A stretch of 64,000 nt of DNA from Alistipes sp. (lineage in GTDB: Bacteria > Bacteroidota > Bacteroidia > Bacteroidales > Rikenellaceae): contig JAGBEH010000008.1 in assembly GCA_017937125.1 (NCBI GenBank), positions 62,001 through 126,000 of the forward strand, given 5' to 3'. The notes beneath the pieces are model-generated. The model had not been told where the DNA came from, did no database searches, and saw only the letters and a program-made list of their open reading frames with translations. Position 1 is the stretch's first letter; each line of letters opens with the position of its first letter. Made by a program: the position numbers and the translations under genes. Shown here in pieces: positions 3,804-21,700 of this stretch.

Positions 3804-5859
3804 ATGAAAAAATCTCTCTGGAAAAGCAGCTGGCTGCTTCTGACGGCCGTTCTCGCATTCATCGGCTGCAAGGACGACACCACCGATTCACCTACCGTTC
3901 CTACCGTGACGATCACCGAGGAAAGGGCAGCGGGCGAACTGGTAGAATTTACCATAACCGCCAAAGGTGCTGACGAATGCGCCTACATCTTCGATACTGC
4001 CGAGAACATCGGGGGGGGGGAATTTTGACGCCCAGACGATCTTAGCACAAGGCGAAACGGTAGATCTCGCGAGCGAAGATCCCATAGTCAAGGAGATAAA
4101 TCCCGGCACCGAATACGTCGTTTTCGCGGCAGCAAAAAACGCCATCGGATACAGCAAGGTCGAGAAATGCAACCTGAACGTCCCCAATCTCGTGGACGTC
4201 GAAGTCTCGGAAATCACCAAAAGTTCATTCAAATTCACCGTTACGACCGATAACGACCGCGCATACAAATATGTGACGATGCCCACCCCCTACCTCGAGG
4301 AGGTGTATGCCGTGCAGGAAGCCGAGACCGAAGCCGAAAAGAATACGGCCGCAATGCGTTATCTGGCTTGGTACGGATTCAAGGACAACGGTACCAAATC
4401 TTTCACGCATACCGATAACGAGACCTATGTCGATGTAGACGAGGGCGAATATACCCGTGAGCTGATCGCAGGTATGGAATACTCGGTACTGGCCGTAGGT
4501 TACGGTTCCGACGAGAAGTTCGCAGGCAAGGTCGTTGTCAGGAACTTCAAGATGGCCGAGTCGGGCGTATGTACGGGCAACGTGGAATTCAAACTGGCCG
4601 ACAATGCGGCGGGCATCATCAGCGCAAAGACCATATGCACTCCCGACGAAAACGTCCTTTACTACAAAACGCTGCTCATCAAGAAAGCGAATCGCGACGC
4701 ATTCATTCAGGAACACGGACAGGACGGCTATAACTATCAGGTCGCCAATAACGACAACAGCCGCCACCTTACAGAGGCCGACGAATACCTGTGGAAAAAT
4801 CTTTCGGCCGAGACGGAGTATGTGATGAGCATCCTCATCATCGACAAGGACCACAACACCAAATGGGAAGACCACGAATTCGCCACGGCCAAAGCCGACG
4901 AGCAGAGCGCCGACATTACGATCACGGGCACGGTAGGCGATCCTTCGGGTTATTACGATGACTGGAATTCGCTGTCGTTCAACCTCAAGTCGTCGGAGAT
5001 AGTCCTGCCGAGCAAATATTTCTTCGGTTATACGTCATTAGTAACATACCTGATGAACCGAGGGCTTACTCTGGAAGAGGTAATCGACCAATACGGCGAG
5101 TCGTTCAGCCAGTGGAACCTCAACCAAATCAACGGCGACAACGGCCTTAACGCCAATTTCACCGAGACGCTCAAACCCGACGTAGCATATACGTATGCCG
5201 TAGCACTTACCAATGCCAACGGCAAAGTGGGCATAAAATCTATGGAGCTGCGCACGGCCAAGCGCGTCGTAGAGCCGCTTTCGCAATCGCCGCTCTTCGA
5301 GGAACTGGCAGGCGTATGGGCAGTCGTAGTCCCCATTCAGGAGTGGGATTCCGACGCGGGAGAATACAAGAACTACGAATACAAGTTCGACGTTACGATA
5401 GGTAACGACGCCGAGTTCGGCGAGCTCTGCCGCTCTTACAACTGGCTTATGTGCAAGGGCTGGGCAGGTCTCCCGTACAAGAGCGCCGACGATCTGCGCA
5501 ACGATCCCGCAAACGACGGCTATTATAAGGAAGTTCCCGAAAACCTCTTCTACAACTTCGGTCCTAAGTGGTTCTTCGAAATCGACGCCGACGGCAATGT
5601 TACCGTACCGACCAAATCGTACGTTCCCTCGCTTATGAACTACGAGGAGGATGCTCCCGGTGCACGTCTGGCATCGGTCAGCACCTACATCGGATCCGAC
5701 TCTCTGCCCGTGGAGGTTTCGGCGGACAAGAACACCATCACCATCAAACCTTACACCGGCGGCTATTCGGGTCCCGCTTACCTGATGCTGGTAGACGAAG
5801 GTTCGTATATGGCTCCGAGCGCTAAAACGTGCGGCGACATCGTGCTGACACGCAAATAA
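3804..5859 (+). CDS. Surface lipoprotein, frameshifted at a poly-G tract (phase-off, or sequencing error)
   Basis: ATG at 3804 opens a lipoprotein signal (hydrophobic segment then FIGC, lipidated C22). The reading frame hits TGA at 4026 just after a run of ten G. With nine G the frame continues as GGGNFDAQ to 5859, giving about 684 residues. The mature part looks like a string of fibronectin-III-like beta domains (repeated phrases such as PGTEYVVFAA, GMEYSVLA and ETEYVMS). It ends in a lipocalin-like domain starting near LAGVWAVV. It is predicted to be outer-membrane anchored and surface exposed, as are other Bacteroidales lipoproteins of this design. The ligand is unknown. The downstream piece alone could be translated only from an internal start that lacks a signal peptide. 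The neighbour at 6197 has the same C-terminal design and its own poly-G tract. Confidence 0.8.
4011..4020 (+). repeat. Poly-G tract (10 G) in a lipoprotein coding sequence
   Basis: Ten consecutive G residues encode Gly-Gly-Gly early in the mature lipoprotein. Ten put the gene out of frame; nine or twelve would restore it. The downstream bases AATTTT also follow the tract at 18298-18307. Confidence 0.9.
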
Positions 5860-5884: not shown

Positions 5885-5917
5885 GATGCGCCCTCCGACG
5901 GAGGGCGCATCCTTTTT
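5885..5917 (+). terminator. Terminator after the first lipoprotein
   Basis: A 12-bp stem, GATGCGCCCTCC (5885-5896) with GGAGGGCGCATC (5900-5911), is followed by CTTTTT. Confidence 0.9.
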
Positions 5918-6134
5918 CCGTACGGCCGCAACTCCGCATACGCCGCAACGGTCGGGAACGACGATTCCCGCGAAAACATCGCTTTCCGCATATTCGTCCG
6001 CAACATCGCCCCGAGAAATGCAGGCACCCTGAAAATCAGTGCCGCAGGGCACTGCAAGGCTGTTTCCCGAAGATGTCGAACGGTCTGCAAGCCGTTGGCC
6101 GACAATTATTTCTCGATTTTTTTCAGTCGATTTT

Positions 6135-6165
6135 TTTGGAGGGGGGGGGAAGTTTCATATATTTG
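6135..6165 (+). promoter_or_regulatory. Promoter with a poly-G spacer, upstream of the fimbrillin-like lipoprotein
   Basis: TTTG (6135-6138) and TATATTTG (6158-6165) are 19 nt apart. Nine of those 19 bases are an uninterrupted G run. Other complete promoters in this window have spacers of 19 or 20, so the present length should be active. A change of a few G would move it out of range. The rest of 5918-6134 shows no other element. Confidence 0.8.
6141..6149 (+). repeat. Poly-G tract (9 G) between promoter elements
   Basis: Nine consecutive G residues lie entirely inside the spacer between the -33 and -7 elements. Slippage here would change spacer length and hence transcription of the lipoprotein gene at 6197. 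Confidence 0.9.
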
Positions 6166-6196: not shown

Positions 6197-8602
6197 ATGA
6201 AAAAAATCGAATTACTCAATGCAGTGACGGCTGCCGCTATGCTGATGGGCGCCGCCGCACTGTCGGGCTGTACGGCGGGCGACGAGACGCCCGATTCCGA
6301 ACAGCAAGGTGAAAAAATCACGATCCAGGCGACGACCGAAGCCCGTACATACCTGAACGGCAACCGTACGATGCTCGGTAACAACGGCAATGTACTGTGG
6401 ACGGCAGGCGACAAGTTCCTAATATACGGGGCGACGGCCGCAGGCCAGGTAGCTCCGGCGGAATTCGCACTCACCGACGGTGCGAATACGACATCCGCAT
6501 CCTTTACGGGCTATGCCCCCGCAAGCGATTGCTCTTCGTTCGCGGCAGTTTACGGCGGCGACAGATCATCCGCGGTTTTCGCGTCCGGAGCGGTCGAGAG
6601 CGTAAATTTCGTGCATATGGCGATTCAGGATTATGTGGCCGGAGGTTTCGCACCCGGGGTCAATCCTATGATAGCAGTGACGGACGACCTTTCGCAGGAG
6701 CTGGCGTTCCGCAACGTATGCGGAATACTCGAACTCTGCATCACGGGCGACAAGACGGTCTCCGAGATACGCGTCGATGCCCCGAATATGCAAATATCGG
6801 GATCCGTAAGCGTCACGCCGAACAATATGGAATGGACGGGAGGTCCCGAAGATAATAAGTATACGAGTATCTGGCTCTCCGAAATCAACGAGCGGCTCGA
6901 CCCGACCAAAGCCAAGCCGTTCGACATAGTTATGCTTCCGGGCACATACGAAAACCTCACGATAACCATCGTCAATACCGACGGCTCGCAGTGCACCAGG
7001 ACCGCAGCGTCGCCCATCGTCATCGAACGCAGCGCAATCACGCCCGTCGATGGTCTGACGGACGAAGCGAACGCATTGGTTTCCGTCAGCATAGACGAAG
7101 CGTCCTCCAACTGGCACGATATCGTCGTCGATATAACGAAATCGGACGAATGTTCGAGGTTCGTATATATGTGGGGCACCGATTCCTACATAGCCGACTG
7201 GCAGGCGACCAATCCCGATGCAAGCGATGCCGATATGATATTCGCGGTCGGCAGCGAATACACGAGCAATCAGCGTTTCCGATACGACACACTCAATTTC
7301 AACGGCGAGTCATACCACTTTTTTGCCATAGGATTCGATGCGGACGGCAATATGGGCGACATAACAAGTTGCAGTTTCACGCCGCAATTCCCCTATGACG
7401 ATAACCTGAATGTGACACTGGCCGCCGAGAAAGTCACGTCCGACTCCGCAACGATAGCTATCGATGCACGGGGCGACGGCATTTCGGTCGTCAATCTGAG
7501 CATATACAAACGCACGGTACTGGATGCCAATCCCGAATGGCTGATAGTACAGACCGTTGCCTTCAATGCCCAAGCGGCGATAGGCTATGTCGAAGGAGAG
7601 AATATGCAGCACACTTTCAACGAACTGCTGCCGAACACCGAATACGTGGTATTGTGTATCGCGCGGAACGATGCGGATACGAAGATCTCGCATATGGCGC
7701 AAACATTCGTCACCACGGAAGCGCGTACCGTAAGTACGGCCTCCATATCCTTCGAGACAACGACAGTGGAAGATTATCAGGCCTCGTTCTCGATGACCTG
7801 TTCGGACAACGCCGTGCAGTACAAGGCCGCCAATGTGACGAAAGCCGCATATGAATCATACGGTTCTTCACTCGCCGACATAATAAACCGCGACATTACC
7901 GCAAGGGATATTCCCGCCGATCGTACCCTGACATTGACGAACCTCAGCCCCGAGACCGAATACGTACTCGCGGCCATAGCGTTGGATGCCGACGGGAACT
8001 ACGGCCAGCTCAGTGCTTTGCATTATACCACCACAGCAATCATCCCCGGGCCCGACAGCGAAGAGTACCGCCGATTCATCGGCACCTGGAATATGCAATA
8101 CGACAATCTGTGGTCGGCGGAATATACTCCCACGTTTACGGTAACCATAGCCGAGGATGTGGTAGGCAAAACATATCGTGTAAGCGGATTGGCGCCGAGG
8201 GGCGAAACCGAAGCAGCCCATATGGACGATACCGTAACGGCAAAATTCATCAACGGCAACATATGCTTAGAGGCGGGCAGCGAGATAGCGGATAACGGCG
8301 ACTATGCAAGTCAGAACTATTCGTTCGTATTCACCGTATATCGTCCGAACGGCGACGGCCAATACGGATTGTCTCTCAGCGACAGTCTCGTAGGACGATA
8401 TGTAGACGGATCGATAGTGTTCTCGCAGGACAAAGGCTACATATTGTATATTTTCAATTCGCAGACCGGCAACGGAATGGGGTATTTCGGCGATTTCGGT
8501 GCCCCCGGCAATATCCGTCTTACGAAAGCGACGAGCGGGTCCGCATCGACCTCGACCGAACCGTTCGTGCGCAAGGACATATTGACACCGATATGGAGAT
8601 AA
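6197..8602 (+). CDS. Fimbrillin-like surface lipoprotein with fibronectin-III-like repeats
   Basis: 801 residues. The N-terminus is a lipoprotein signal with lipobox LSGC (C25). Residues about 35-280 resemble the fimbrillin-like fold common in Bacteroidales (polar beta strands, VLWTAGDKFLIYG near 60). Two or three beta-sandwich repeats follow (NTEYVVLCIARN near 480, ETEYVLAAIALD near 590). The C-terminal domain begins near GTWNMQYD (about 630) and resembles the lipocalin-like domain ending the lipoprotein at 3804. It is predicted to be anchored in the outer membrane and surface exposed. An adhesin or stalk role is inference. It is a single-gene unit with its own terminator. Expression may switch through the poly-G promoter spacer at 6141-6149. 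Confidence 0.85.
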   Translation: MKKIELLNAVTAAAMLMGAAALSGCTAGDETPDSEQQGEKITIQATTEARTYLNGNRTMLGNNGNVLWTAGDKFLIYGATAAGQVAPAEFALTDGANTTSASFTGYAPASDCSSFAAVYGGDRSSAVFASGAVESVNFVHMAIQDYVAGGFAPGVNPMIAVTDDLSQELAFRNVCGILELCITGDKTVSEIRVDAPNMQISGSVSVTPNNMEWTGGPEDNKYTSIWLSEINERLDPTKAKPFDIVMLPGTYENLTITIVNTDGSQCTRTAASPIVIERSAITPVDGLTDEANALVSVSIDEASSNWHDIVVDITKSDECSRFVYMWGTDSYIADWQATNPDASDADMIFAVGSEYTSNQRFRYDTLNFNGESYHFFAIGFDADGNMGDITSCSFTPQFPYDDNLNVTLAAEKVTSDSATIAIDARGDGISVVNLSIYKRTVLDANPEWLIVQTVAFNAQAAIGYVEGENMQHTFNELLPNTEYVVLCIARNDADTKISHMAQTFVTTEARTVSTASISFETTTVEDYQASFSMTCSDNAVQYKAANVTKAAYESYGSSLADIINRDITARDIPADRTLTLTNLSPETEYVLAAIALDADGNYGQLSALHYTTTAIIPGPDSEEYRRFIGTWNMQYDNLWSAEYTPTFTVTIAEDVVGKTYRVSGLAPRGETEAAHMDDTVTAKFINGNICLEAGSEIADNGDYASQNYSFVFTVYRPNGDGQYGLSLSDSLVGRYVDGSIVFSQDKGYILYIFNSQTGNGMGYFGDFGAPGNIRLTKATSGSASTSTEPFVRKDILTPIWR

Positions 8603-18265: not shown

Positions 18266-18427
18266 ATGAAAACGAGCCTGTTTTCCCCAAAAAATTCGGG
18301 GGGGGGGAATTTTTACTCTCCACCTGGAATCATAGCCGTTGAGACAACAGTAGACAGCGGTTTTGCCGCAAGCGCGGACAACGGGAGCATCGACTCCCTC
18401 GAGAAAGACGATTACGGAAATTTCTAA
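18266..18427 (+). CDS. 53-residue peptide with poly-G-encoded Gly run and acidic tail
   Basis: ATG at 18266 opens 53 codons ending TAA at 18425-18427, only 13 nt before the lipoprotein ATG. The product begins MKTSLFSPKN and has Ser-Gly-Gly-Gly-Asn-Phe encoded by ten consecutive G. It then has a Pro/Val-rich middle (PPGIIAVETTVDSGFAAS) and an acidic end (LEKDDYGNF). The pattern resembles short uncharacterised Bacteroidales peptides with a GFAAS-like motif that precede lipoprotein genes; that similarity is from memory. No function is assigned. The tract is in frame as sequenced. One G more or less would truncate the peptide and break translational coupling to the next gene. Confidence 0.6.
   Translation: MKTSLFSPKNSGGGNFYSPPGIIAVETTVDSGFAASADNGSIDSLEKDDYGNF
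18298..18307 (+). repeat. Poly-G tract (10 G) in the small peptide gene
   Basis: Ten consecutive G residues, flanked by TTC and AATTTTT. The same CGGGGGGGGGGAATTTT core occurs at 4010-4025. Confidence 0.9.
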
Positions 18428-18440
18428 AACCGCGCCTGCT

Positions 18441-21400
18441 ATGAAAAATCTTATACATCTTACAGCTGCCTTATTCGCGGCAGCGACATTCGCCGCCTGC
18501 ACGGACAATCGCGAATCGGATGATATGCCGGTCGCAGGCAGGCAAATCGAACTTACGGCCGTAGCCGTCAATGATGCGACGAGAACCCATCTCGCCGATC
18601 CCGACCAGCCGCTTTCGCCCGTCCTTTGGGACGCAGGCGACGCCGTAGAGCTGATCGAAGTCGGCGGTGCGGCAGCCAACACCTGCACATCCTCGGGCTG
18701 CACGCTCTCGGACGACGCTTCGCGCGCCGTATTCTCATTCTCGCTGCCCGCACGGACCGCTCAATCGTTCACATACCGCGCCGTCTACCCCGCATCGGCA
18801 TTCGTCGGCATCGTCGGCACTTCCGAACTCTCGCTCGTACTGCCGTCGGAGCAGCACCCCGCAGCCGCGTCGTACGACCCTGCCGCCGCACTGATGCTGG
18901 CGACAGACCCCGAAACCTACTACGCACAGCCCGAAGGGTCGAGCCGATCGCTGACACTGCGGTTCGCCCATTTGGTCGCATATGCGCAGATGAAACTGAC
19001 GGGGCTGCCGACCGATAAGGGCGACATCGTCGGCGCAGGCTTCGAAAGCGGCACGGCACCCGTAGCCGGTGCCGTATCGTACGACTGCACCTCCGCGGAC
19101 GACATCGCGCCCGACCTCAAATCGATAAAACTGATTTACGACAAGCCCGTCGCAGCCGCGTCATCGTTCGATGCGTGGTTCGCGGCCGCACCCTGCACGT
19201 TCGCAGCCGACGATATATTTACCGTGACTGTCGAGTTCGCATCAGGAACGACGATCAAACGTACCGTCACCATCCCCCAATCCCGAAACCTCGAATTCAA
19301 ACGAGGTGCGATCTCGACTTTCTCGGTAGATATGAGTGCCGCGACGGCCGAGAATCCCATAACCATCCCCGAGATTCTCGACGGGATATCCTCTGCGGCG
19401 GAAGCGATAGATGCCGACAAGGACCGCGTACTGTATGCCGTAGTCTCGGTAGACGCCGCCAACGGCAACTACACGAGCCGCAACATTATGATACAGACGC
19501 CCGACAGCACCTCGCCCGACAACGGTATGATACTGTTCGGCCCGACATCGGCCAATTACAGGTTCGGCGACATGCTGCGCATCACGCTGCCCAGAAACAC
19601 GGCCAAGCGCGTGAACTACAACAATAACGGCCAGCTCGAAATAACGGGAGTGACCGACGGCAATATCGAAGTGCTCGGGAACCGCGCAATAAAGCCCGTC
19701 GAGATCGAAGCATCGCAAATGATACGCTATCACGGGATGCTCGTCACGCTCAAGGACGTCAGCTCGCCCGCCGATGGCGGCACGTGGTGCACGAATTACG
19801 ACGGCAAGCACTACTTCACCGCACCCGACGGAAGCAGCTTTATGGTCTTCGTCAAGAAAAACGCCGCGGCATTCGCAAACAAGACATTCTTCGGAGCGCG
19901 CGGGCCGATAACGGGATACGTCTCGATATTCAGCAACTCGCCCCAGCTGTGCCCCAACACGATAGAAGACGTCGCGGCATTCGCCGAGGAGCCGAAGCCC
20001 GAACCCGCGGACTATATATACTACGAGAACTTCGACGGCAATATGTCGTATCCGTCGGGAACGTGGGCCGACAGCAACACCACGTGGCGCCACCCGCAGG
20101 GAACGGGCGCTGCGGAGGTATCATATCTGTCCCGCAGCGTGCAGATACGCAACAACACGCCCCAGTCGTCAGGTTACGACGGAGCGTCGGGCAACTATTA
20201 TGCGCATTTTTACGGGACAGTGGGATATTTCATATCAGCCGAGAACATCGCGCTCGAAAGCGGGCAGGTGAACCTGCGCCTGACATTCGGCTGCAATTTC
20301 ATCTCCGACGGCGTAACGATTACGGTCAGCTCGCCCGACAGGAGCGCGGAAATCGCATACACGGGCACGACGAGCAACGGCACTTGGGGGCAGGGATATG
20401 CAGAGTTCACCCTCGCCAAACCCGTCGAAAAGCTGTCGATAAAGTTCGCCAACAATTCGACGAACATCCAGAAATTAGACGATATAAAGCTCGAAGCGAT
20501 TTCGACGCCGAGCAGTCAGGTAATAGACCTTTCGCCCGTTGCGTACAATTACAAATGGGCTGAGATTCCGACCGTAAACGTCTCCAACTCCGACTGGAAG
20601 CAGGTTACGCACTGGACGACGACGGTCGTCTCCAAAAAGCGCGTGCGCAATTTCACGTCATACTACGACACCCGCCGCCACTGCCCGATGTGGGTGGCGC
20701 ACACCCTCCACGAATGCTATCGCGAAGGCTCGGGACGCTCCTCGACCTCGTCGTGGCGCCCCGATCCGAACCTGACGAACGGGGAGCAGTCGATAATATA
20801 CGCGTGGTCGAGCGAATATGCGGGATACGAATACTGGACGAACAGTGTCCTCACGTCGCTCGGACGCTCCGACACGTGGACACGCGGGCATATGCTTATG
20901 TCCAACTACCGCCCCGGAGCCGAAGAGGAGATAAACCTGCAAACGTTCTACTCGACCAACATAGCGCCCCAAGGTTTCGACGCATTCGATGCACTGTGGA
21001 TTCAGGCCGAATCCAACGCATTGAAATACCAATGCGCCGACACGCTCTACTACGTATCGGGATGCTATTTCGCCAATGAGAACTGGAAAGAGTACGATGC
21101 AAGCAACTGGGGCAGTCTATCGCCCGAATCGAAAGAGTGCGTCGTGCCTACGCATTTCTACAAAGTGCTGCTGCGCACGAAGGCGGGAAACACGGGCAAA
21201 CCTGTTCAGGAGTGTTCGGCGGACGAGTTGCAGGCCGTAGGAATATGGTTCGAGCACGCCGAAAAAGACCCCGTCGAGGGGGCGACTACCGACGAGACCA
21301 AGTGGCCGCTTACGTCGGCGCATCTCTGCTCCGTCGCCGAAATCGAGGAACGGACGGGACACGAATTCACATTCTTCCCCGAAGTGCCCGCAGCCGTAAA

Positions 21401-21501: not shown

Positions 21502-21570
21502 CGTGTTTCGTGATGTCGCCACGCCTTGTCGCTGCCTACCGTCTCCTCCCGCCCAACCTTATCGCGATCC

Positions 21571-21700
21571 TCTTCTCCGCTCTTCTCCGCTCTTCTCCGC
21601 TCTTCTCCGCTCTTCTCCGCTCTTCTCCGCTCTTCTCCGCTCTCCTCCGCTCTTCTCCGCTCTCCTCCGCTCTTCTCCGCTCTCCTCCGCTCTTCTCGCC
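21571..21700. repeat. 10-bp tandem repeat array (about 12-13 units)
   Basis: Unit TCTTCTCCGC repeats head to tail from 21571. Units 8, 10 and 12 are TCTCCTCCGC, and the last (21691-21700) is degenerate. The array is all pyrimidine apart from one G per unit. It sits in a roughly 320-bp pyrimidine-rich strip (21530-21850) between a terminator and the rpsF promoter. No gene is supported in 21502-21884. Confidence 0.93.

Follow-up and report, generated by a model that had tools for sequence, protein, structure and literature searches.

Poly-G tracts in promoter spacers of Alistipes: a candidate slippage switch upstream of a lipoprotein-like gene

The locus upstream of the 6197 gene

The window analysed here is a 64,000-nt stretch of an Alistipes genome (the source genome; 2.16 Mb in 12 contigs), and the features that bear on the gene starting at position 6197 are collected in Table 1. 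The protein predicted from this gene gave FN3-like (fibronectin type III) matches in Pfam, all of them sub-threshold, and zero matches in NCBIfam. No same-species copy of the locus was found in a DNA query against 60 other genomes, which returned only one match, promoter-sized at 32 nt.

Table 1. Coordinates of the promoter, tracts and neighbouring features in the window
Feature	Position	Strand	Remarks
G10 tract in N-terminal coding region of preceding lipoprotein gene	4011..4020	+	ATG 3804; downstream frame to 5859; assembled out of frame
Perfect palindrome, 13+13 nt, terminator-like	5885..5911	+	3' of preceding gene; putative terminator
Inverted repeat, left arm TCGATTTTTTTCA	6113..6125	+	13 nt, perfect; from the sequence
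-33 element TTTG	6135..6138	+	from the sequence
Promoter spacer, 19 nt	6139..6157	+	non-tract part 10 nt = GA + AAGTTTCA
G9 tract, candidate slippage site	6141..6149	+	arrangement matched in 98/180 Alistipes genomes, source genome included
-7 element TATATTTG	6158..6165	+	from the sequence
Lipoprotein-like gene, 801 aa (MKKIELL...LSGC), proposed switched gene	6197..8602	+	lipoprotein-signal-like N-terminus
Inverted repeat, right arm	6198..6210	+	13 nt; overlaps start codon
G10 tract inside short leader ORF (ATG 18266)	18298..18307	+	directly 5' of lipoprotein gene

The original prediction had described TTTG and TATATTTG as flanking a 19-nt spacer with a run of nine G, and both the coordinates and the bases proved to be as claimed. 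The -7 element, which ends 31 nt from the ATG at 6197, agrees with the TAnnTTTG consensus given in the available text of a published description (PMC7366714); with TTTG and TAnnTTTG at the usual spacing the site has the make-up of a Bacteroidota housekeeping promoter, and at 6135–6165 a mononucleotide tract lies between the promoter elements, as in the Neisseria fetA/porA type. The further claim, made from ten complete promoters, that promoters in the window have spacers of 19 or 20 nt only was borne out by a scan for TTTG-N15..24-TANNTTTG, which returned 11 sites including that at 6135, six with a spacer of 19 nt and five with one of 20 nt.

Runs of G or C of at least 7 nt are confined in the window to a G10 (4011), a G9 (6141) and a G10 (18298), with none of 7 or 8. 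Counted as overlapping matches, G9 occurs five times; 100 dinucleotide shuffles averaged 0.14, and none of them reached five.

Recurrence of the arrangement across Alistipes

The genus was searched with the pattern TTTG-N0..12-G8-N0..12-TANNTTTG, which needs at least 8 G and thus leaves shorter tract states outside its reach. Matches were found in 98 of 180 Alistipes genomes (source genome included), against two places in all for the reversed pattern in the same 180 genomes; they include a narrow recurrent family, GAAAATTCNN-G8/G9-TAAATTTG. The equivalent C-run pattern matched 12 places in 6/180 genomes, seven of the 12 in one genome. Genome G144 has seven promoters whose spacer, 21 nt long in each, carries C9 in place of G9.

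In an all-species scan, the matches listed (120 stretches) placed 27 stretches in Alistipes and other Rikenellaceae, where the spacer was 18–21 nt in 24/29 sites; among the same listed matches this spacing was seen in 11/19 sites from other Bacteroidales, 4/12 from other Bacteroidota and 21/63 from all else.

Spacer statistics were drawn from 149 Alistipes places among the matches listed (one overlapping row removed), and flank analyses from 143 of these, six having been dropped (five with spacers of 10–15 nt and one overlapping row with 21 nt). An ORF start was found at most 320 nt downstream, by our own rule, for 128 of the 143 tract promoters. Simple tests, run with no matched background, assigned a hydrophobic N-terminus to 119 of the 128 downstream ORFs and a lipobox-like motif to 47. 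The ORFs form 50 protein clusters, so the arrangement precedes many unrelated genes; these appear to be diverse and, by the simple test used, mostly exported.

Long G-runs are also numerous outside promoters. The source genome has 62 runs of at least 8 G (47 G9, 8 G10, 6 G8 and 1 G11) and only two of exactly G7. Across 49 Alistipes genomes, the source genome among them, exact G9 outnumbered exact G7 by 1045 to 307; genome by genome, G9 was the more frequent in 43, equal in three and the less frequent in three. For 32 genomes from other Bacteroidales families the corresponding totals were 95 G9 versus 1119 G7, with G9 larger in 1/32.

The promoter at 6135 is not isolated within its own genome either, being one of five such promoters among the 62 long G-runs: by a hand estimate from the 305 TTTG..TANNTTTG matches in the genome (reversed control 90), only about 0.03 of these runs would be expected inside such a spacer by chance. 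It is therefore highly improbable that the tracts are a neutral mutational feature, with Alistipes accumulating G9 runs of which some land in promoters by chance, given also the two places found with the reversed pattern against at least 149 with the true one and the 119/128 downstream ORFs with a hydrophobic N-terminus (a figure with no matched background). A neutral origin would accord with the prevalence of G9, both genome-wide and for each of the common lengths of the non-G part of the spacer (9, 10 and 12 nt), as in mutational equilibrium, and with several runs in the source genome that by the tests used lie in neither promoter, reading frame nor leader ORF.

The assemblies are mostly metagenomic and homopolymers are error-prone, and some tract promoters come within 150 nt of where a contig ends (L227, L266, L270, L271, L290 and L339 among them), all of which could point to a sequencing or assembly artefact; but the peak at nine G with few runs of seven is seen in Alistipes and is absent from other families, and the isolate record of Alistipes muris DSM 112343 also has a tract promoter, so that we give this explanation almost no weight. 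Lost mismatch repair as the source of instability was ruled out by the presence of MutS_I in 58 of 61 genomes searched, including the source genome.

Promoter spacing, tract length and the proposed switch

Tract-promoter spacers of 18, 19, 20, 21 and other lengths numbered 62, 47, 7, 16 and 17 respectively among the 149 places, with 132/149 in the range 18–21 nt. For tract-free promoters the counts at 18, 19, 20 and 21 nt were 4, 20, 29 and 1 in the source genome (100 of 305 matches listed); 4, 20, 27 and 6 at 79 other Alistipes loci, most of them selected for having a tract or a homologue; and 9, 36, 30 and 1 (147 rows) in G110 and G127, a baseline made up of 150 of 1619 matches listed and of those two genomes alone. 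Tract-free Alistipes promoters thus prefer 19–20 nt, whereas tract promoters mostly have 18, 19 or 21 nt. Taken by protein cluster, the commonest spacer was 18 or 21 nt in 25 clusters and 19 or 20 nt in 21, compared with 25 sites at 18/21 and 162 at 19/20 in the pooled tract-free baseline, which contains chance matches (Fisher p ~2e-8).

The non-G part of the tract spacer measures 9, 10 or 12 nt in 131/149 places and 11 nt in only 2/149. This near absence of an 11-nt part makes a spacer of 20 nt rare with G9, although it is common in tract-free promoters. Whether the non-G part is 9, 10 or 12 nt, G9 is the commonest tract length, and the non-G part could therefore place the usual state of a promoter either inside or just outside the optimum. 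As tract spacers are most often 18 nt long, it is also possible that 18 is functional in itself or that poly-G shifts the optimum.

Tract length was compared between tract promoters that share about 80% identity or more along the 118 nt from the -7 box, which gave 21 pairs; several of these fall into trios, so the 21 are not independent, and what they compare is different species, or like promoters in a single genome, and not members of a population. At the level of the class, tract length does differ between related promoters: the G count is unlike in 11 of the 21 pairs and the same in 10. The spacer is altered in 8 of the 11 differing pairs; in the other three a flank base has also changed and the spacer is kept at 18 nt. 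Among the 10 pairs with the same G count, one has a different spacer through a flanking A. One promoter family has G8 in G120, G9 in G138 and G10 in G061, and G125 and G126 differ by a single G (G9 versus G10). Genome G003 has two promoters that match at every base of the 54 nt upstream and at 98% downstream, with G8 in one and G10 in the other. The near-identical G003 tract promoters L290 and L227 (G8 and G10) precede proteins with the same signal-peptide start and divergent mature parts, and a contig ends about 127 nt from each; this layout points to a promoter cassette that is repeated or recombines.

Homologues of the 6197 protein (E<=1e-10) occur in 53 of the 180 Alistipes genomes, and upstream regions were inspected for 23 of 30 homologue loci (the source genome or its locus being included in each of these counts), with start codons chosen by rule and some of them doubtful. 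A run lies inside the spacer in three of the 22 other regions (G8 with spacer 18, C8 with spacer 20 and C9 with spacer 21) and a C9 lies elsewhere upstream, outside the spacer, in two. The remaining 17, including that of the closest homologue (L233, 39% identical), have no run of at least 7 within 230 nt. The homologue L234 has a related promoter with a spacer of 19 nt and no run.

These comparisons bear on the idea that the G-run is a fixed structural element that determines how strong the promoter is or serves to bind a factor (through A-like DNA geometry, a G-quadruplex or a protein site) and does not switch. Such an element would explain the strand preference (non-template G in 98/180 genomes versus C in 6/180), the recurrence of the narrow promoter family and the preponderance of 18-nt spacers, as if poly-G had moved the optimum, as well as the three of 11 length-differing pairs in which a flank change keeps the spacer. 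We nevertheless consider it unlikely, as a difference in G count alters the spacer in 8/21 similar pairs, two homologues of the 6197 gene have a C-run in the spacer and the related promoter of L234 does without any run; further, the peak at G9 is also seen in coding regions and leader ORFs.

We regard slipped-strand switching of promoter spacing as the probable explanation, within a poly-G phasome that would also touch reading frames (4011 and 18298 in the window). The G9 run would be a hypermutable promoter spacer, lengthened or shortened by one or more G through slipped-strand mispairing at replication; each gain or loss would alter how far apart the -33 and -7 elements stand for the Bacteroidota housekeeping sigma factor that reads them. 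Given the tract-free preference for 19 or 20 nt, the 6197 gene is predicted to be ON at G9 (19 nt) and G10 (20 nt) and weak or OFF at G8 (18 nt) and G11 (21 nt). The original prediction held that gain or loss of a few G should change promoter strength sharply. Adding one G to the 19-nt spacer gives 20 nt, the commonest tract-free spacer listed for the source genome, so that the expectation has to be narrowed to the loss of one G (18 nt) or the gain of two (21 nt) and would not apply to any small change. Its broader proposal of a Neisseria-style slippage switch fits with the position of the tract, the spacer preference, the genus-wide recurrence and the tract-length differences between related promoters, the switching itself being a prediction; slippage as the cause, the switching of expression, its reversibility and surface exposure of the product we infer.

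The closest precedent is the pair of Neisseria genes fetA and porA, for which the available text of PMC5320596 describes repeat tracts that lie between the -10 and -35 promoter elements and alter expression. As in fetA (poly-C) and porA, a mononucleotide run sits between promoter elements; in Neisseria a change in its length affects the spacing and, with it, how an outer-membrane gene is transcribed (PMC5320596). The Alistipes promoter class differs (-33 TTTG and -7 TAnnTTTG), and the arrangement is common to many unrelated genes of one genus; moreover, the expression change is reported for Neisseria and predicted for Alistipes.

Phase variation in gut Bacteroides is treated as recombinase-driven inversion in the accessible parts of two reviews (PMC12632263; PMC11868660), from which slippage in Alistipes would differ. 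The likeness to the invertible promoters of Bacteroides, which belong to the same order, lies in the proposed transcriptional ON/OFF control of surface structures (PMC12632263, as far as its available text goes). Those promoters invert between inverted repeats, whereas 137 of the 138 tract promoters with enough flank for the test (out of 143) have no perfect repeat longer than 9 nt, by which inversion was ruled out as their general mechanism.

The exception is the 6197 site itself, where a perfect 13-nt repeat (Table 1), part of a longer imperfect pair, encloses the promoter and makes inversion a rival at this one site; the original prediction did not mention this repeat. The 72-nt segment 6126–6197 between the arms would then flip, by a mode described for Bacteroides (PMC12632263, available text), and the other 137 promoters tested reach at most 9 nt. 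However, the arms consist mostly of T7/A7, the right arm coincides with the beginning of the coding sequence, and a flip would also take away the start codon; mismatched upstream and downstream pairs reach at least 11 nt about 0.45 times per 138, and no recombinase family was found among the 20 window proteins scanned, a subset of those in the window. The repeat is probably accidental, and inversion of this promoter very unlikely.

For the Bacteroides fragilis capsule, the available text of one paper goes no further than to suggest that slippage might occur at a run of four C (PMC3090145). A search of the open-access literature at the level of titles and the opening parts of abstracts, with subscription papers and preprints outside its scope, found no description of slippage phase variation in Alistipes. 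With the homopolymer contingency loci of Campylobacter and Helicobacter, as these are reported, Alistipes has in common many homopolymer-linked genes per genome; it differs from them in belonging to the Bacteroidota, in having tracts in -33/-7 spacers and in leader ORFs, and in the presence of MutS.

Tracts in reading frames and leader ORFs

The two further poly-G tracts that the original prediction had tied to large lipoprotein loci are real and do lie at such loci, but they are in reading frames and not in promoters (Table 1). In the source genome, 29 run-spanning ORFs of at least 120 aa were found, 27 of them with at least 160 aa outside the window; 20 of the 29, each with an in-frame run at the assembled length, were put through Pfam, of which 13 were matched and seven were not, and some may not be genes. 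Those matched were three SusC-type receptors (TonB plug), a LicD protein, a Polysacc_synt_2 protein, two glycosyltransferases, a sulfatase-domain protein, a sigma-70 family protein of ECF-like size, a TetR regulator, two Mfa-like fimbrillins and a DUF1573 protein. The ORFs at L160, L166, L186, L175, L180, L159, L163 and L188 of the source genome carry a G8/G9 or C9 run in frame, and the domains found in this set are LicD, TetR, sigma-70 family, polysaccharide, glycosyltransferase and SusC-type. A regulator or sigma factor that switched through an in-frame run would switch its whole regulon.

Short leader ORFs directly 5' of lipoprotein genes form a further class, with two members intact at G9 in addition to the window's own from 18266. 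All three (the others at L172, ~2036 (-), and L187, ~2041 (-)) are of about 55 aa with the G-run near the start, and have in common the pattern Y-x-[AS]-P ... E-x-GFA-x-S. It is possible, judging from this layout, that leader-ORF tracts act through translational coupling, as a switch of another kind than the tracts in promoters and coding regions.

Many over-represented tracts are thus tied to surface genes, as in homopolymer contingency loci, with switching predicted only. The poly-G phasome proposed for the genus would act at three places, namely promoter spacers, coding regions and the short leader ORFs before lipoprotein genes. A fuller model, which we offer tentatively as somewhat less likely than not to hold in all its parts, is that in Alistipes, with MutS present, replication holds tracts near nine G, the non-G length of the spacer presets the default state, and promoter, coding and leader tracts are combined. 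A non-G part of 10 nt would give a spacer of 19 nt and a default ON state, as at 6135, and one of 9 or 12 nt a spacer of 18 or 21 nt and a default OFF state one slip from ON.

If this is true, the three kinds of tract would let one cell line of this common gut genus make very many surface combinations without a recombinase. A slippage phasome in Alistipes would by itself make surface-protein expression in these commensals stochastic and would escape surveys based on inverted repeats.

The lipoprotein gene that follows the leader ORF from 18266 starts at an ATG at 18441, has a frame to 21446 and encodes DUF5689 and Endonuclease_NS domains. Shortly 3' of the end of this ORF, at 21570–21697, lies a tandem array of 12.8 copies of a 10-bp unit.
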